A DNA stretch of 64,000 nucleotides from Methanobrevibacter sp. (GTDB lineage: Archaea; Methanobacteriota; Methanobacteria; Methanobacteriales; Methanobacteriaceae), in assembly GCA_022775905.1 (NCBI GenBank), contig JALFJX010000009.1:186001-250000 (forward strand), read 5' to 3'. Below the pieces are notes generated by a model. The model was not told where the DNA came from, did not search any database, and saw nothing but the letters and a program-made list of their open reading frames with translations. This document shows positions 37,796-55,132 of this stretch, piece after piece; position 1 is the stretch's first letter; each line of letters begins with the position of its first letter. Position numbers and translations under genes: made by a program.

Positions 37796-37825
37796 TTATT
37801 CTAATTCAAAATAATGGTGGAAAAC

Positions 37826-38593
37826 ATGTTTGATACAATCGCAGAAAAGAAATTCTTATTGAAAGAGTTAGTTAAAAAAGACTTAACTTCAAAATATAAA
37901 GATTCCATTCTAGGTATACTTTGGAGTTTTCTTAATCCTCTTTTGATAATGTTAGTTTTTACAGCTATTTTCTCAATGTTATTCGGACGTCAAATTGAGA
38001 ACTATCCCGTTTATTTCTTAACTGGAAGAGTCATCTTTGATTTCTACAATGCAGGAACAAAAGGTGCGATGAGATCAATAAAAAGAAATGCAAATCTGCT
38101 CAAAAAGATTTATGTTCCTAAATATATGTTTTCCGTAAGTGCAATATGCTATGAATTTGTTAACTTTTTAATTTCAATGGTAATATTGTTCTTAGTAATG
38201 ATAATTACAGGTGCTTCATTCCATTGGACAATAATTTTATCAATAATTCCAATGTTCTTCTTAGTTTGCTTGATATTTGGAGTTGGATTAATCTTAGCAG
38301 TATGTAACACTTACTTCACAGATATTGGACATTTATACAATGTATTTACACTTGTATTGATGTATGCATCTGCATTATTCTATCCTATGGAAATCGTTCC
38401 AGCATTAGTTCAAAGAATATTTACATTAAATCCAGTTTATTCAGCGATTTCATGTTTCAGGGATTGTATCAGTTATGGAATTTTCCCAAATACCTCCACA
38501 TTATTATACTTAGCAGTATTTTCATTAACAGCATTAGGTATTGGACTATGCTTATTCAAACTTTATGAGAAGAAATTAGTATTAGAAATATAG
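37826..38593 (+). CDS. ABC-2 type permease for surface polymer export (TagG/Wzm-like)
   Basis: A 255-residue membrane permease with six helices. The N-terminal amphipathic segment KELVKKDLTSKYKDSILGIL followed by WSFLNPLLIMLVF is the hallmark of the polysaccharide/teichoic-acid exporter family (Wzm, TagG). RNANLLKKIYVPKYMFSVSA is the conserved coupling region. I choose ATG 37826 since GGTGG lies five bases upstream; ATG 37814 overlaps that site. It pairs with the ATPase gene that begins 9 bp after its stop, forming a two-subunit exporter for an undecaprenyl- or dolichyl-linked polymer. Confidence 0.88.
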   Translation: MFDTIAEKKFLLKELVKKDLTSKYKDSILGILWSFLNPLLIMLVFTAIFSMLFGRQIENYPVYFLTGRVIFDFYNAGTKGAMRSIKRNANLLKKIYVPKYMFSVSAICYEFVNFLISMVILFLVMIITGASFHWTIILSIIPMFFLVCLIFGVGLILAVCNTYFTDIGHLYNVFTLVLMYASALFYPMEIVPALVQRIFTLNPVYSAISCFRDCISYGIFPNTSTLLYLAVFSLTALGIGLCLFKLYEKKLVLEI

Positions 38594-38602
38594 GTGTTTA
38601 CT

Positions 38603-40024
38603 ATGAGTTTAATTGATAAAATAAAAAATTTATTTACAGATAATAAAAAACAAAAAGAAATTAAACAAATTCCTGTAGATACTAAATTTCAAAATAATAG
38701 ATTTAACAATATTAGAATTTATGCTCCTGATTATGTGATGAGTAAAGAAAATAGATATTATGTGCAAGTATTAGATAACTCTAATAATCCCATTGAAAAT
38801 GAAACAATAAGTTTGTATCTTGATGAAAAATTTTACGAAAAACATACAGACAAACAAGGATATGTATCATTCAAAATTTCTCCTAAAAAAACTAGGAAAG
38901 AAACTAGAATATATTGTCCATCAGATGAAGAATTTTGTCCTTATGTAACTGCTAAATTAATACATCCTGATAATATAAATCCCGAAGAATCTTCTAAACT
39001 AGAGTTATATGCACCAAATATGAGCATTTACTCAAAAGATGAACCTTATTACAGTGCAAGATTACTTGATAGTGAGGGTAATCCATTGAGTGGTGAAACA
39101 ATCACTTTTAATTTTAATGAGGAGACATTCGAAAAAACAACTGATGAAAAAGGATTTGCAAGCATAGAATTATCATTAAATGAAGGAACATACACAATTG
39201 AAACAATATTTAAAAGTAATGATAACACAAAATCCATTTCTAAAACCTCAAAAATTGATGTTAAAACCAGAAACATAGATCGTAAGGTGATGATCGAAGT
39301 TAAACATCTTGCAATGGAATTTAAAGTATCAAAAGATAAAATTGATACATTAAAAGAATACATTATTAGAACCATTAAAAGAAACAAAAAAGAAGCCGAA
39401 AAAATTAGAATATTAGATGATATTTCATTCAATGTTTATCAAGGTGAAAGAGTAGGTATTCTTGGATTTAACGGTGCTGGAAAAAGTACTCTTTTAAGAA
39501 TAATAGCAGGTATCTATGAACCTAGCGAAGGAGAAATAAAAATTCATGGCAAAATTGCCCCGTTACTTGAGTTAAGTGCAGGATTTGACAAAAATTACAC
39601 TGGAAAAAACAATATCTTTTTAAATGGTGCTCTTCTAAGTATGGAAGAAGATTTCATCAGAGAAAAATATGATGAGATAGTTGAATTTTCAGAACTTGGT
39701 GAACACATAAATTATCCTGTTAAAAATTACTCCAAGGGTATGAGAGCAAAATTAGGTTTTTCAATAGCTACTCTCATCAATCCTGAAATTTTAATCATTG
39801 ATGAAATTTTAGCCGTTGGAGATATTAAGTTCAGAAAGAAAAGTTCTGAAAAGATTAAATCAATGATGAAAGATGGTGTCACAGTACTCCTAGTATCTCA
39901 CTCCATAAACCAAATAAAAAACATTTGTGACAGATGCATTTGGATTGAAAATGGACAAGTATACATGGAAGGACCTGCAAAGAAAGTCTGTGATGCTTAT
40001 GTTAAAAGTGCTAAGAAAAAGTAG
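38603..40024 (+). CDS. Polymer-export ABC ATPase (TagH/Wzt-like) with two N-terminal Ig-like domains
   Basis: A 473-residue ATPase with unusual layout. Residues about 35-125 and 130-220 are two repeats with an Ig/Big-like pattern: NIRIYAPDYVMSKENRYYVQ, VLDNSNNPIENETISLYL and TDKQGYVSFKIS in the first; LELYAPNMSIYSKDEPYYSA, RLLDSEGNPLSGETITFNF and TDEKGFASIELS in the second. Residues 225-473 are a Wzt/TagH-type ATPase: Walker A GFNGAGKSTLLRI near 289, signature NYSKGMRAKLGFS near 374, Walker B ILIIDEILAVGD near 396. Known Wzt proteins carry a C-terminal, not N-terminal, beta-sandwich. There is no signal peptide. The likely start is ATG 38603 with TAGGTG upstream. Confidence 0.88.
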   Translation: MSLIDKIKNLFTDNKKQKEIKQIPVDTKFQNNRFNNIRIYAPDYVMSKENRYYVQVLDNSNNPIENETISLYLDEKFYEKHTDKQGYVSFKISPKKTRKETRIYCPSDEEFCPYVTAKLIHPDNINPEESSKLELYAPNMSIYSKDEPYYSARLLDSEGNPLSGETITFNFNEETFEKTTDEKGFASIELSLNEGTYTIETIFKSNDNTKSISKTSKIDVKTRNIDRKVMIEVKHLAMEFKVSKDKIDTLKEYIIRTIKRNKKEAEKIRILDDISFNVYQGERVGILGFNGAGKSTLLRIIAGIYEPSEGEIKIHGKIAPLLELSAGFDKNYTGKNNIFLNGALLSMEEDFIREKYDEIVEFSELGEHINYPVKNYSKGMRAKLGFSIATLINPEILIIDEILAVGDIKFRKKSSEKIKSMMKDGVTVLLVSHSINQIKNICDRCIWIENGQVYMEGPAKKVCDAYVKSAKKK

Positions 40025-40032
40025 GGATTGAA

Positions 40033-40551
40033 ATGGATAAAAGATGGATAATGATATTAATATTTTTAATTGTAGGATGTTGTTGCCTATTTTATGTTGT
40101 TGAAACCTCATCCACTGTTGGCGATGCAATTACAGTTGTAAACAAGACTGTGGTTACACTTCCAAATGATTTTTCAATTGAAAGTAAAGAAACAGACTAT
40201 GGAACAATAATCAATGAGAATACCAATGAAAAAATATATATTAAAGATTTAGGTAAAGAAGATTCATCAATGAATGCATTCAAAACTGCTCTACAAGATT
40301 TAAGTAAAAAATCAGACATTAAAGTTATTAAAAATTCAACATTGAATATTGATAATATTACTGCATATAAAATTGATTATAAAAATATTACAAAAGAAAC
40401 AAATCAAAACATTAGTAATGCTTATGTATTTACATGCAATCATACATTTTTAATCAAATTACAAAATTATGACGATGATACTGAATTAAATGAAAACTTA
40501 GAGTATGTTGTTGCACATATGACTCCGGACTTTAAACAATCTCAAGATTAA
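40033..40551 (+). CDS. Small membrane-anchored protein in the polymer-export cluster
   Basis: A 172-residue protein that I do not recognise. It has one N-terminal hydrophobic segment with basic lead residues (MDKRWIMILIFLIVGCCCLF), which can act as an uncleaved anchor or signal. The rest is a hydrophilic domain (TVVTLPNDFSIESKETDYGT, then KNSTLNIDNITAYKIDYKNI) with several N-x-S/T sites. The domain recalls short secreted proteins of methanogens that share a LPxxFS...T...Y layout, but no function is known. It starts 8 bp after the ATPase gene and ends 5-14 bp before the TagF-like gene, so it belongs to the transcript. Confidence 0.7.
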   Translation: MDKRWIMILIFLIVGCCCLFYVVETSSTVGDAITVVNKTVVTLPNDFSIESKETDYGTIINENTNEKIYIKDLGKEDSSMNAFKTALQDLSKKSDIKVIKNSTLNIDNITAYKIDYKNITKETNQNISNAYVFTCNHTFLIKLQNYDDDTELNENLEYVVAHMTPDFKQSQD

Positions 40552-40556
40552 ATAAC

Positions 40557-43097
40557 GTGATAAAATTGGATGAAATTGAATTTTCAATCATAATACCCGC
40601 ACATAATTCAGAATTGGGAATAAGAGAGTCAATTGATTCCATAATTAATCAAACACTTAATTTTGAAGAGAATATTGAAATAATTATTGCAGATAATAAT
40701 AGTGAAGATAAAACTAAGGATATCTGCTCTGATTACATTTCCAAATATTCAAACATACAATATATTCAGTTAGACACAGTTAATTTTTCCAGAGCGAAGA
40801 ATGAGGCAATTAAAAAAGCTCAGGGAAAATTTATTGCTTTTTTAGAACCCCATGACTTCTTTTCAAAAGATTCACTTTTAAATCTTTTAAAGTTCATTAA
40901 TGATCATGAAGACATTGATTTAGCGCTGCTTCCAATTTTTTATTATAAAAATGGAAGAAAAGAACAATACTTGAATTATAAAATTCAAAACAGCAAAAAA
41001 ATCGATTTAATAGAAAATCCACAATATTCACAATTACTCGGATTATCCACTTTTTTTAGAAATAGATCCAGTGCAGAAATCGAACTTTTAGATGTCGTTA
41101 ATGGGAATATTACTTTTTTTAGTGAGATTTTAATCAATAACCCAAGTTTAGGTATCTGCTGTGAGGGATCTTACTTTGCAAAGAACCTTGAAGAAAAAAT
41201 TTACCCTTCAAGCACTGTGAGTTATTCTAGAGAAGAATACGAAAAATACATCCAAATCAATTTTAATCATTTAAAAGAAAAATGCTTCAACAAATTCTCC
41301 GGAATACCAGAATTCATCCAGTTCAATTTTATAAATCATTTAAGATGGATATTGTCAATACAAAAAACAGACGATAAAATTGATTTGACACTCTTAGCTG
41401 AAAATATCATGCATATCAAAGATAATGCACTATTAAAGAATAGATTACTCGACAATAAACTCACAATTACAGCATTCTTGTTAAAATACAACAATGACTT
41501 AAACGATGAGATTATAGAAAAATTAAATCTGAATACCGTATTTATCGATATATATGATATTATTGACAATAAACTCCACATTTTGGCAAACATTATAAAC
41601 ATCAATCCAAGAAATATTGAGATATTATTTGATAATAAAACAAAAGAATTTAAGAAATTGACTTTTCCAAATAAATATGCTCCTTGTTTAGGCCATGATT
41701 TATTACATGACTATTCAATGGAATGCATCATCCCAATTACCACAGATAAACAATCAAAACTTGAATTTAAACAAAAAAATAAATCATTGCATATTGATTT
41801 TTCAAGGCCATGCAATTTCTCAAAAAGTGTCGGATATGCAAAAACAAAACATTACTTGAGCATTCTGGAAAATGATAAGATAATAGTTGAGAAGAACACT
41901 TCATCCAAATGGATCAAACAAGAAATAAAAAGCTTAATAAATATGGTCAGGAAACATGAATCTGGATTTATAAAAGCAGTTCCATTTAGAATAGCATATA
42001 TGATTAGTTATCCCTTCCTAAAAGACAGAAAAATATGGTTTTTCATGGACCGTCCGAATGATGCTGATGACAATGGATTAGCATTATTCAAATATGCTGT
42101 AGAACAGGACGATGATATTGATAAATACTTCATTTTAAGTTCAGAGAATAAGGAATTTGATAATATTAAAAAGATAGGCAATGTCATTGGATACAAATCC
42201 CTCAAGCATAGATTCTTAGGAATGTTTGTTGAAAATATAATAACTTCCCATCCTGACAATGGAGTCATTTATCCATTTTGGGGAGGTTATCCATTTTTTG
42301 CAGGTCTTTTAAAATCCAGCACAATGTTTTTACAGCATGGTGTCATAAAGGATGATATTTCCTATTGGGTAAATAAAGCCAACATGAATTTATCTTTATT
42401 CTTGACATCAACCATTAAAGAATATGAGTCAGTATTAGAAAATCCTTACAACTATGATAATTATGTTGTTCAATTACTAGGCCTACCTAGATATGATGGT
42501 CTCAAAAACCGGGAAGACAAAAAACAAATTTTAATCATGCCGTCATGGAGAAGAGATTTAGAATTTAAATCAAAAGAATACATTAAGGAAAATGAATTTT
42601 TCAAAAGATTCAATTCATTAATCAACAATAAACAACTTATTGAAGCAGCACGTGAAAACAATTATGAAATAATATTCAAACCACATCCAAACGTGTATGA
42701 TTTTATCGAATTATTCGATACAAATGATTATGTTAAAATAGATTATGAAAAAACAAGATATCAAACATTATTCAACAGCGGATCATTAGCAATTACAGAC
42801 TACTCCTCTGCAATATTTGATTTTGCATATCTAAATAAACCTGTCTTATATTACCAATACAGTGATGATTATCATTTCAATTTAGAAGACAGTTATTTTG
42901 ATTATGAAACAATGGGTTTTGGAGAAGTTGTGAAAAAAGAAGACGAATTAGTTGATTTGATTAATGAATATATTGAAAACGACTGCAGACTTAAAGAAGA
43001 GTATGCCAATAGGATTAAAAATACTTTCAAGTTCAATGACAGAAAAAATTGTAAAAGAGTGTATGATAGAATTAAAGAAATTAAACTAAAGGATTAA
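40557..43097 (+). CDS. GT2 glycosyltransferase fused to TagF-type glycerophosphotransferase
   Basis: An 846-residue two-domain protein. Residues 8-220 are a family 2 glycosyltransferase (FSIIIPAHNSELGIRESIDS, IIIADNNSEDKTK), but the DxD position reads LEPHDFF. Residues about 490-830 match the CDP-glycerol glycerophosphotransferase (TagF) family. The two catalytic-type histidines are FLQHGVIKDD near 594 and IIFKPHPNVYDF near 708, and TDYSSAIFDFAYLNKPVLYY is near 746. TagF polymerises glycerol-phosphate in bacterial teichoic acids. Start choice is uncertain: GTG 40557 has no ribosome site, while TTG 40566 has GTGAT four bases upstream. Confidence 0.87.
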   Translation: MIKLDEIEFSIIIPAHNSELGIRESIDSIINQTLNFEENIEIIIADNNSEDKTKDICSDYISKYSNIQYIQLDTVNFSRAKNEAIKKAQGKFIAFLEPHDFFSKDSLLNLLKFINDHEDIDLALLPIFYYKNGRKEQYLNYKIQNSKKIDLIENPQYSQLLGLSTFFRNRSSAEIELLDVVNGNITFFSEILINNPSLGICCEGSYFAKNLEEKIYPSSTVSYSREEYEKYIQINFNHLKEKCFNKFSGIPEFIQFNFINHLRWILSIQKTDDKIDLTLLAENIMHIKDNALLKNRLLDNKLTITAFLLKYNNDLNDEIIEKLNLNTVFIDIYDIIDNKLHILANIININPRNIEILFDNKTKEFKKLTFPNKYAPCLGHDLLHDYSMECIIPITTDKQSKLEFKQKNKSLHIDFSRPCNFSKSVGYAKTKHYLSILENDKIIVEKNTSSKWIKQEIKSLINMVRKHESGFIKAVPFRIAYMISYPFLKDRKIWFFMDRPNDADDNGLALFKYAVEQDDDIDKYFILSSENKEFDNIKKIGNVIGYKSLKHRFLGMFVENIITSHPDNGVIYPFWGGYPFFAGLLKSSTMFLQHGVIKDDISYWVNKANMNLSLFLTSTIKEYESVLENPYNYDNYVVQLLGLPRYDGLKNREDKKQILIMPSWRRDLEFKSKEYIKENEFFKRFNSLINNKQLIEAARENNYEIIFKPHPNVYDFIELFDTNDYVKIDYEKTRYQTLFNSGSLAITDYSSAIFDFAYLNKPVLYYQYSDDYHFNLEDSYFDYETMGFGEVVKKEDELVDLINEYIENDCRLKEEYANRIKNTFKFNDRKNCKRVYDRIKEIKLKD

Positions 43098-51598: not shown

Positions 51599-54500
51599 CT
51601 ATCTTTTGACTGTAATTTTAACAGTTTTTGAAGTTGCTTTGTAGTAGGTGTTACCTACATATTTAACTCTAGCTGAGAAAGTTCCTCTTTTAGTTAATTT
51701 GGTAATTTTAAATGTAGCTTTACCTTTGGAATTGGTAGTTGCTTTATATGTTTTACCATTAACTTTGATTGTGAGTTTTGCATTCTTAATAACTTTACCT
51801 TTACTGTCTTTTAAAGTAACAGTGTATTTTTTGGTTTTTGTTGCAGCTTTGAAAGTTTTCTTAGCAGCAGTTACTTTAGATGCCTGTTTAGTGATTTTAA
51901 TTGTTGCAGTAGCAGAAGAAGCCACATAATTGTTATCACCTGCAAACTTCATTTTTAAAGTGTAAGTTCCTGTTTTAGAAGCAGAAAGTTTGTATTTTAT
52001 TACACCATTAGCATTGGTTGTGTATGTTTTAGTTTTACCATTGAATGTAATAGAAACTTTTTTATTTGCTAAAACTTTACCATTAATGTCAGTTACTTTT
52101 ACAGTGAAATAAGAACCAGATTTAACAGTAGTTAAGTAAACAGTAGAAGAAGTTTTTGCAACTACTTTACTTGCAGATTGATTTACAATAATATTACTTG
52201 TTACTTCTTTAGGTCCATAAACATCATTACCTGCAAATGAAACTACAACATCATGAACACCAGCATCAGGATTGAAATTAAATTTAACTAAACCATTTGC
52301 ATTAGTTGTAGCATTATAAACAACACCATCAATAGCTACTGAAATGACAATGTTTGAAATCGGATCACCATTTTCATCATATGCATAAGCTGAGAAAACA
52401 GCACCTTTAATGTATTCAGTAGATACACTTGGAGCTAAAATGATTACTTTAAATTCAGGAACATTATTTTCTGAAGCAACTGATTTATCAGAAACTATTG
52501 AATTTGATCCAACACCTTTTTTAGCTGCTAAATAATTATTTTTAACAGTTAAATCAGAACCAGTAGCCTCAATTGCATAGTCCCCAGTTGTTTTAATAGT
52601 ATTATTTTCTATTTCAACTTCACCATTTAAAGTTTTTATTCCAGTACCAGTAGCTGTAACATTATTCTCTTTAATTAATACATCACCTTTAGTACTAATA
52701 GCTAAAGATGTTTTAGGTAAAAGAGAATCACCAGTACTAGTTTCACCAGTTTCAGTACCAATACATTTAATATCATTAGAAATGAGTGTTGCATTATCTT
52801 TAATACTTGCTACAATACCATAAGTGTAATTACCAATTGCAACAACAGCATTATTAGAAATATATGGATTTGCTTCACTCAATTCCATACCACAAGCAGC
52901 ATATGCATTTACATTAATTGTGTTTTTATCATATGTCACATTTTCAACAGGACCCATCCAATTTGCAGAATAAATACCATAAGCACTATTTGGAGCAGTC
53001 ACAGAAATTTCATTATTCTTCACAAATCCATTTGTAGATAATGAATCAACATCAACACCATTTGCATAATATGCATCAGAGGATACTGCAATGGAGTTAT
53101 CACTTACAGAGAAGTTGTCAGCTGCAACAAAAACACCATAAATATAGCTGTGACCTTCAGCAACAATAGTGTTATTGGAAATTAAAACATTAGAACTTAC
53201 AATATTGTAAATCATATTATAATCATCATCCATATCATAATTATAAGCATCACTTTTAACACTTACAACATAAAGGGTATCATAATAACCATTTACATTA
53301 TTATATTTGAGATTTACACGATTATCAGTGAAAGTTACATTTTCACAGTAGTAGAAAACGATACCTTCAGACATGACAGTAGAAGCCCAAGTATCTGGGT
53401 CATAACCTACAGCAACAGAAGGCAATTTAATGTCAAAAGTATTATTTTTAACAACAATATTTTTAGCAGCTTTCTGTTTATCATCATCACCAGTTACAAA
53501 AATTGCATTGTTAACGACAGCACCAGTTGTATTTCCAGTAAATTTGATTTCATTGTTTAAAATAGTTAAATTTCCGATTTCAGAATAGATTGCATAACTT
53601 TCAACAGCACCAAAATTATTAACATCAATAATGTTGTTTTCAATAGTTACAGCACCTTCTTTTACAAGATTAATACCAATACCAGTAGATTCAATTCTAT
53701 TATTTCTAATTGATGTATTACCTTTAACCTTAACAGCTACAGAATTATATGGAAGTAAAGGATCCCCAGTAGGATCTGTACCATTATTGGATCCAGTAGC
53801 AACTATATAATTATTAGAAATAGTACCATTTTTTTTCATACCTGCAACAATACCTGTAGAATAGTTACCCACTACTGAAATTACATTGTTTTCAATATAA
53901 GGATTATCCTCGAATATTTCCATACCGCAGACAGCATAAGAGTTACCTATGATTGTGTTATTTACATAAGAAATATCTTGAATTGCACCATTGTATTGGT
54001 AAGAATAAACACCATAAGCACATTTTGGGGAATTAACAACAATAAAGTTATTATTTATCATACCTTCAGATGCAGGACCATCAATTGTAATTGCATTAGC
54101 ATAGTAAACATCAGAAGTTGCATTGATTACATTGTATGAAACATTGAAATCTTCAGCAGATACGAAAAGCGCATAAATATAATTGTGACCAGCAGCAGTT
54201 ATTGTGTTGTTGAAAATTTCAACATTAGAAGAAACAATAGGATTTTCTGATTCGAAGTTATAAGCATTTCCCCTTACACTTACTGCATATATAGTATCAT
54301 AAGAACCTTTTGCACTATTATATTTCAAGTCAACACGATTGTTTGTGAATTTAACACCATCACAGTAATAAAATACAATACCTTCAGAGAGAGCTTTTGT
54401 TGCCCAAGTTTCAGGGTCATAACCTACAACAACAGAAGGAATTTCTATATTGAATACATTACCATCAACAACAATGTTTGTAGAAGTAATTTCTGAATCT

Positions 54501-55132
54501 TCATCACCAGTTACACGGATAGCATTGTTTACAACAGTACCATCAGTGTTTCCAACATAATTTATTGTATTGTTTAAAATTTTCAAGTCACATACTGTAT
54601 CAGCATGAATAGCATAACCCTCATTTCCCTCAAGTGTCTTAAAATTAATTAAGTTATTTGATAAAGTTACACCAGATACACCATAAACAGTAAATATACT
54701 ATAATCAGAATGAATAAGGTTGAATCCATCAATTACAACATTATCTGCAATAACAGCAAAAGAAACACCATTAAGTGCAACATTATTACCAGATAATTTA
54801 ATAGATTTACCAATTGTCATATAACTAACATCAAGTCCAGTAAAATCTCCTTCAAATATCAATTCATCACTAGAAACATCATCTTTTAAAGTTCCAGACT
54901 CATCAAAATAATCATGGAATGTGTCTTTTGTTACTACACTAGATTGTGTTTCCGGAATTGAATCATCTGATAAACTAGAATCATCAGGATCAATTGCTAG
55001 AGCATTATCATCTTGAATCGCCTCATCGACAGCCATAGTACTATTATCATCAGACACCGCAAAAGCAGCGCCAACAGACAACAAGATTACTGAAAGTAAA
55101 ATCAAAGAGACGAAAAACCTTTTCCCTTTAAT
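51599..55132 (-). CDS. Adhesin-like protein: duplicated beta-helix region plus three Ig-like domains, probable ATT start
   Basis: About 1177 residues. The in-frame sequence before the first TTG (55105) reads GGT GGA ATT ATT AAA GGG AAA AGG and is closed by a TGA at 55142-55144. GAGGTG lies five bases before ATT 55132, giving KGKRFFVSLILLSVILLSVG followed by AAFA, a standard signal peptide. TTG 55105 would lose its basic residues. The mature protein has right-handed parallel beta-helix repeats in two related blocks (each with VGYDP-TWA, SEGIVFYYC and NRV-LKYN), then three Ig-like domains ending in a Lys-rich tail. It is probably bound to the pseudomurein surface; the ligand is unknown. Confidence 0.88.
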   Translation of the reverse strand: MKGKRFFVSLILLSVILLSVGAAFAVSDDNSTMAVDEAIQDDNALAIDPDDSSLSDDSIPETQSSVVTKDTFHDYFDESGTLKDDVSSDELIFEGDFTGLDVSYMTIGKSIKLSGNNVALNGVSFAVIADNVVIDGFNLIHSDYSIFTVYGVSGVTLSNNLINFKTLEGNEGYAIHADTVCDLKILNNTINYVGNTDGTVVNNAIRVTGDEDSEITSTNIVVDGNVFNIEIPSVVVGYDPETWATKALSEGIVFYYCDGVKFTNNRVDLKYNSAKGSYDTIYAVSVRGNAYNFESENPIVSSNVEIFNNTITAAGHNYIYALFVSAEDFNVSYNVINATSDVYYANAITIDGPASEGMINNNFIVVNSPKCAYGVYSYQYNGAIQDISYVNNTIIGNSYAVCGMEIFEDNPYIENNVISVVGNYSTGIVAGMKKNGTISNNYIVATGSNNGTDPTGDPLLPYNSVAVKVKGNTSIRNNRIESTGIGINLVKEGAVTIENNIIDVNNFGAVESYAIYSEIGNLTILNNEIKFTGNTTGAVVNNAIFVTGDDDKQKAAKNIVVKNNTFDIKLPSVAVGYDPDTWASTVMSEGIVFYYCENVTFTDNRVNLKYNNVNGYYDTLYVVSVKSDAYNYDMDDDYNMIYNIVSSNVLISNNTIVAEGHSYIYGVFVAADNFSVSDNSIAVSSDAYYANGVDVDSLSTNGFVKNNEISVTAPNSAYGIYSANWMGPVENVTYDKNTINVNAYAACGMELSEANPYISNNAVVAIGNYTYGIVASIKDNATLISNDIKCIGTETGETSTGDSLLPKTSLAISTKGDVLIKENNVTATGTGIKTLNGEVEIENNTIKTTGDYAIEATGSDLTVKNNYLAAKKGVGSNSIVSDKSVASENNVPEFKVIILAPSVSTEYIKGAVFSAYAYDENGDPISNIVISVAIDGVVYNATTNANGLVKFNFNPDAGVHDVVVSFAGNDVYGPKEVTSNIIVNQSASKVVAKTSSTVYLTTVKSGSYFTVKVTDINGKVLANKKVSITFNGKTKTYTTNANGVIKYKLSASKTGTYTLKMKFAGDNNYVASSATATIKITKQASKVTAAKKTFKAATKTKKYTVTLKDSKGKVIKNAKLTIKVNGKTYKATTNSKGKATFKITKLTKRGTFSARVKYVGNTYYKATSKTVKITVKR

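Follow-up and report, generated by a model that had tools for sequence, protein, structure and literature searches.

The window (the whole stretch of 64,000 nucleotides that was analyzed) contains an exporter operon in which the gene of an ABC ATPase with two N-terminal Ig domains lies between those of a permease and a small protein with one membrane or signal segment. The features of this locus were as follows:

37814-38593, forward strand: ABC-2 permease (Wzm/TagG-like), 259 aa (Pfam ABC2_membrane, E 1.3e-18).
38592-38596, forward strand: AGGTG, probable Shine-Dalgarno sequence for the ATG at 38603, overlapping the permease stop codon (sequence read directly).
38603-40024, forward strand: Ig-Ig-ABC ATPase, 473 aa (ORF list, Pfam, alignment and full-length AlphaFold2 model).
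38609-38632, forward strand: predicted N-terminal amphipathic helix, residues 3-10, LIDKIKNL (AlphaFold2 helix, low pLDDT).
38702-38965, forward strand: Ig1, residues 34-121 (AlphaFold2; Pfam; HMM and tree).
38996-39268, forward strand: Ig2, residues 132-222 (AlphaFold2; Pfam Big_1; HMM and tree).
39272-40021, forward strand: Wzt/TagH-type nucleotide-binding domain (NBD), residues 224-473 (PDB matches; Foldseek; alignment motifs).
40033-40551, forward strand: protein of 172 aa; single TM/signal segment at the N-terminus, domain predicted to lie outside (hydropathy, synteny).
40557-43097, forward strand: 846-aa polymerase, GT2 plus CDP-glycerol:poly(glycerophosphate) glycerophosphotransferase type (Pfam).

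The ATPase ORF, which ends at 40024, has two candidate starts, GTG 38594 and ATG 38603. Since AGGTG lies 6 nt 5' of the ATG, the latter, which had also been chosen in the initial annotation, was considered the better of the two, giving the 473-aa form. The possibility that two separate genes had been joined by a sequencing error, or that the fusion was otherwise false, was ruled out, because the same full-length two-Ig ORF was found in the same operon in 15 of the 67 genomes of the window's genus, and intact once again in named contigs of a second collection that overlaps with the first set. Hence, the fusion first noticed from the sequence is one intact gene, and the Ig-Ig-ATPase layout is real, conserved and unusual.

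The permease gene was located directly 5' of the ATPase gene in syntenic loci too, and its product also matched the NCBIfam model for the galactan permease Wzm/RfbD (E 3.7e-19, under that model's cut-off). No Pfam match was obtained for the 172-aa protein, whose gene is kept beside the ATPase in syntenic operons. In the 846-aa polymerase, Pfam detected Glycos_transf_2 (E 1.2e-29) and Glyphos_transf (E 6e-46). The order of the locus was conserved as (34193 gene)-GatB-CBS-HisE-permease-ATPase-172 aa-GT2/Glyphos_transf-GNAT-LarB-HypF, names which we take, in part from recognizing the sequences, to be those of the genes concerned. Because this order is kept, the ATPases of different architecture described below are orthologues at one locus. 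The permease-ATPase-172 aa-GT2/Glyphos_transf operon was found genus-wide, save for loci without the last gene. Many of the short, Ig-free orthologues (L185, L188, L190, L192-L197) were of this latter kind, GT2/Glyphos_transf being absent beside the 172-aa gene; such operons likely serve a different polymer or rely on a distant polymerase. In other genera (L199-L208), the GatB-CBS-HisE order was kept and no permease was found within the short flanks. The comparison of loci points to an insertion of the exporter operon beside GatB-CBS-HisE in the window's genus. Judged by its gene content, the operon probably encodes a type V exporter for a putative polyol-phosphate-containing glycopolymer. The wall glycopolymers of methanogens with pseudomurein are chemically little known, although M. 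ruminantium was reported to have teichoic-type genes and as much phosphate in its wall as teichoic acids would give (PMC2812497).

The N-terminal region was modeled by AlphaFold2 (residues 1-231, with an alignment of 10 sequences), and the model consisted of a short helix at residues 3-10, a disordered stretch and, after these, a pair of beta-sandwiches with about seven strands each, the strands falling within residues 38-120 and 134-221. The pLDDT was 75-95 for most blocks of the Ig-pair model and about 90 for most strands, and the same two sandwiches were predicted ahead of a complete NBD in the full-length model. Between residues 54 and 203, Pfam detected MG4 (E 2e-8) as well as two stretches of Big_1 (E 4e-12). 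The two Ig/Big-like repeats that the initial annotation had placed at residues 35-220 were thereby refined to about 34-121 and 132-222. When compared by Foldseek, the Ig pair matched adhesin, FN3, Ig and macroglobulin modules, with low TM-scores over both domains together, so that these matches support the fold class only; the carbohydrate-binding domain (CBD) of Wzt was absent among the best 50 matches. Likewise, no Pfam match to Wzt_C was detected anywhere in the 473-aa protein.

The NBD forms the C-terminal end of the protein, with nothing beyond it in the alignment. ABC_tran was detected at residues 271-402 (E 1.5e-20), and the alignment revealed a Walker A (GFNGAGKST), a signature (YSKGM), a Walker B (ILIIDE) and an H-loop (VSHS). 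Its closest PDB entries were Wzt, TagH, TarH and the Wzt of Mycobacterium abscessus (E 1e-46 to 1e-52), and Foldseek grouped its structure with Wzt, TagH and TarH. These matches, together with the adjoining permease and Glyphos_transf polymerase, bear out the first assignment of the protein to the Wzt/TagH type. The absence of a signal peptide was confirmed as well: hydropathy revealed no TM-like or signal segment in the 473-aa protein (top Kyte-Doolittle 19-residue mean 1.55). Since neither a signal peptide nor a membrane segment was found, the Ig pair should be cytosolic. The region of the LIDKIKNL helix resembles the start of many Ig-free orthologues when the N-termini are compared.

The resemblance of the Ig pair to the adhesin-like proteins of the same window was also analyzed. 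A search of the 1.8-Mb genome with the N-terminal part of the ATPase returned 57 Ig matches, namely its own gene and 56 others, the best of the latter at E 1e-10. An Ig HMM built from Ig1 and Ig2 of 15 species matched the window's adhesin at 51599-55105 with E 1e-40 and another adhesin of the same genome with E 1e-46, values that indicate homology and not chance; the Ig pair and the adhesin Ig repeats are homologous members of a common Big_1/Big_3_5 class. The segment KVLANKKVSITF, at residue 1010 of the adhesin 51599-55105, lies within an Ig repeat. The length of this adhesin is 1168 aa when counted from the first start codon, and not the 1177 residues given before. In M. ruminantium, M1-C (Big_1-like) domains of adhesins have been proposed as binders of the wall or of wall glycopolymers (PMC2812497).

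When the single domains were placed in a tree, Ig1 formed one group (SH-aLRT 82) and Ig2 clustered separately, with the adhesin domains largely outside both; the alignment had 94 columns and its resolution was weak. Ig1 and Ig2 are separate families common to two clades of species. Because the tree sets both apart from the adhesins, the Ig pair is probably old in the ATPase gene and no recent copy. A recent capture from an adhesin was disfavored, since the Ig1 domains of both clades make up a single family, from which Ig2 stands apart. The idea of a borrowed surface Ig module can be retained as far as its adhesin type is concerned, but the loan does not appear to be recent.

The architecture was then surveyed in 139 genomes of Methanobacteriaceae, using a threshold of E <= 1e-40 for the NBD. 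The NBD was found in 126 of them, and the full-length two-Ig form was lineage-specific: 15 genomes carried it, all from the window's genus, whose named relatives are Methanobrevibacter, many of them from animal guts, the rumen included. No match at E <= 1e-45 was obtained in the genomes searched from the rest of the phylum, and the N-terminal part had no match in the phage collection. Apart from these 15 genomes (class A), the re-fetched loci included 21 with only 16-25 aa ahead of the NBD (class B); a Lys-rich C-terminal tail was present at 3 loci (class K), and one species (L068/L174) carried four C-terminal Ig repeats (class C). The latter, which take the place of the N-terminal pair, were seen at L068:1592-3655 (reverse strand) and in the same gene at L100 and L174 (genome G093). 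Hence, the two-Ig form, seen in one genus in this survey, is not general, and the initial view of an archaeal version of Wzt with its module at the N-terminus was not upheld in its original wording, since orthologues at the same locus in the same genus are often free of Ig domains and in one species four lie at the C-terminus.

A single N-terminal Ig was detected by the Ig HMM in paralogues (L071, E 5e-19; L070, E 4e-9; L050, weak) and occurs on this ATPase type in other genera as well. Other paralogous ATPases (L040, L042, L044, L046, L048, L057, L065 and L053-L055) carried added N-terminal modules of either about 330 aa without a Pfam match (RYPK...LDN...DDW) or, in another genus, about 460 aa containing DUF11. 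In genus g6, about 770 aa were fused ahead of a Wzt-like NBD (L051:5038-8121, reverse strand; L052:2930-6022, forward strand); this region had no Pfam match, and SFDLSGGMASR in L052 resembles what we take to be an asparagine-synthase-like PP-loop. Long low-complexity N-termini were observed at L039, L043, L058-L062, L069 and L072, closing directly before the NBD with a short conserved motif (VDNLVSQFIP, VDTILSNIIP) that is perhaps an amphipathic contact helix. These architectures indicate that Ig or related modules joined this ATPase more than once. In a proxy species tree (GatB+CBS+HisE) with a poorly resolved backbone, the early branches lacked the Ig pair and class A fell in two clades, whose branching relative to a third clade, which lacks the pair at the N-terminus, was ambiguous; for the transporter, a tree that unites all of class A in one clade was not rejected (p-AU 0.147). 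Either one gain followed by losses or two events is possible.

The rates of change were compared within the window's clade. Mean identity was 49% for Ig1 and 51% for Ig2, close to the values of the 172-aa protein (50%) and GT2 (56%), and reached 75% for Glyphos, 86% for the permease, 87% for the NBD and 93% for GatB. The Ig pair thus diverges at a rate like that of the GT2 domain and the 172-aa protein, the parts of the operon that would track the polymer. Pairwise dN/dS, calculated by NG86 and rough since several dS values exceeded 1, was about 0.2 for Ig1 (0.21-0.24) and 0.26-0.44 for Ig2; the equally rough NG86 estimate for the NBD was 0.03-0.04. The Ig pair is under purifying selection while changing fast, and the order Ig1 then Ig2 was constant in all 15 species. 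In a mirror-tree comparison of the Ig domains with GT2 and the 172-aa protein, the residual r ranged from -0.19 to 0.58, inconsistent values from non-independent pairs. No clean partner of the Ig pair emerged from these residual distance correlations, and the covariation signal is weak and at most suggestive. When a conserved exposed patch was sought in the Ig alignment, the positions conserved in both clades looked mainly structural.

In Wzm-Wzt exporters, polymer that has been capped is bound by a beta-sandwich domain of the ATPase, which changes position during the ATPase cycle (PMC9445017; PMC11231755); this CBD reads the capped end of the polymer, is required for the export of capped polymers and can also function in trans (PMC9445017). 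By analogy, our leading, if tentative, reading is that the Ig pair may be a species-tuned module which recognizes or retains a teichoic-acid-like polymer. The ATPase would power a type V exporter (Wzm-Wzt/TagGH-like) of this glycopolymer, which the GT2-Glyphos_transf enzyme would build on the cytosolic side of the membrane, with a polyprenyl lipid as the presumed carrier. The amphipathic N-terminal helix would rest on the membrane, holding the Ig pair in the cytosol beside the transporter, where it could bind the polymer, either at a variable portion or at the completed end. The right polymer would then be kept at the entrance of the channel and passed into it by the cycling ATPase, and the Ig pair would fill the role of the C-terminal CBD of Wzt, having been derived independently from adhesin-type Ig repeats. 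In favor of this reading are the exporter family recognized in sequence and fold, the conserved operon, the retention of the ordered Ig pair under purifying selection in 15 species, its divergence at the pace of GT2 and the 172-aa protein, the repeated addition of Ig or related modules to this ATPase, and the precedents of the Wzt CBD and the M1-C domains. The mainly structural look of the conserved Ig positions, the lack of a Pfam relationship to Wzt_C and the weak, inconsistent mirror-tree signal count against it. So do the sister species in which the operon, with its Glyphos_transf gene, is the same and the Ig pair is absent. Since these species keep the operon, the Ig pair would not be needed for export as such; a need for some polymers only fits its absence there.

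The serious rival among the alternatives is that the Ig pair acts as a protein docking scaffold, tethering GT2/Glyphos_transf or other enzymes to the exporter without contacting the polymer, which we consider possible, if clearly a minority view. Ig and FN3-type modules are frequent mediators of protein contacts, the GT2 domain changes about as fast as the Ig pair, and all 15 Ig-bearing loci have the Glyphos_transf gene, while many short orthologues lack it. Nevertheless, other short orthologues adjoin the same polymerase without any Ig domain, and the weak residual covariation with GT2 also argues against docking. A further alternative, that recombination in genomes rich in adhesin Ig domains added the Ig pair as a tolerated passenger or spacer with little or no function, is unlikely. 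The 57 Ig matches in 1.8 Mb, the absence, replacement or relocation of the module in related species and the many unrelated and low-complexity extensions at the ATPase N-terminus would suit a passenger; its retention in 15 species of two clades, a dN/dS well under 1, two distinct Ig families in constant order and a fold predicted at high confidence would not. It is very improbable that the Ig domains brace the two ATPase subunits, as a dimer or in their conformation, and so control how the transporter opens instead of reading its substrate, for the fast divergence of the Ig domains is unlike that predicted for a conserved subunit interface, even though such ATPases work as dimers and the Wzt CBD is dimeric and shifts with the nucleotide state (PMC9445017).

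Returning to polymer recognition, a broader proposal would be that adhesin-type Ig modules at either end of the ATPase, gained and lost between species, constitute an independently evolved check of the wall polymer from inside; this we regard as doubtful. From outside, this polymer is possibly bound by surface adhesins through their domains of the same family. Should polymer binding by the Ig pair be true, the pair would be a ready probe to find the wall glycopolymer. Substrate-reading modules of ABC exporters would then have arisen repeatedly, at either end of the ATPase, and a family of Ig domains known from adhesins would have an intracellular role. As the initial annotation had stated for this layout, no description of Ig domains on a Wzt/TagH-type ATPase was found in the open literature searched, an earlier one being possible.

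Among known systems, the Wzm-Wzt O-antigen exporter (E. coli O9a, Aquifex aeolicus) shares the type of ATPase and permease, the additional beta-sandwich module on the ATPase and the polymer-making enzymes in the operon, but its CBD is a C-terminal Wzt_C jelly-roll, whereas here two Ig/Big_1 domains are N-terminal and Wzt_C is lacking. With TagGH/TarGH (B. subtilis, S. aureus), the ATPase has in common an NBD near TagH/TarH and a TagF/TarL-type glycerophosphotransferase domain encoded next door; it differs in coming from an archaeal lineage with a pseudomurein wall and in having neither the TM helix nor the extracellular C-terminal part of TagH. The nearest non-archaeal relatives among the matches listed were Wzt-like ATPases of Lachnospiraceae/Clostridia, about 52-59% identical in the NBD; those examined were bare NBDs, some with low-complexity tails and none with Ig domains. 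The adhesin-like proteins of Methanobrevibacter carry homologous Big_1/Big_3_5 Ig domains (HMM E to 1e-46), but are large surface proteins, in contrast to the Ig-Ig ATPase with its ATPase domain and no export signal. The Ig-Ig ATPase belongs to the Wzt/TagH exporter ATPases; by its domains it stands outside the CBD-bearing Wzt proteins, and it may work as they do.
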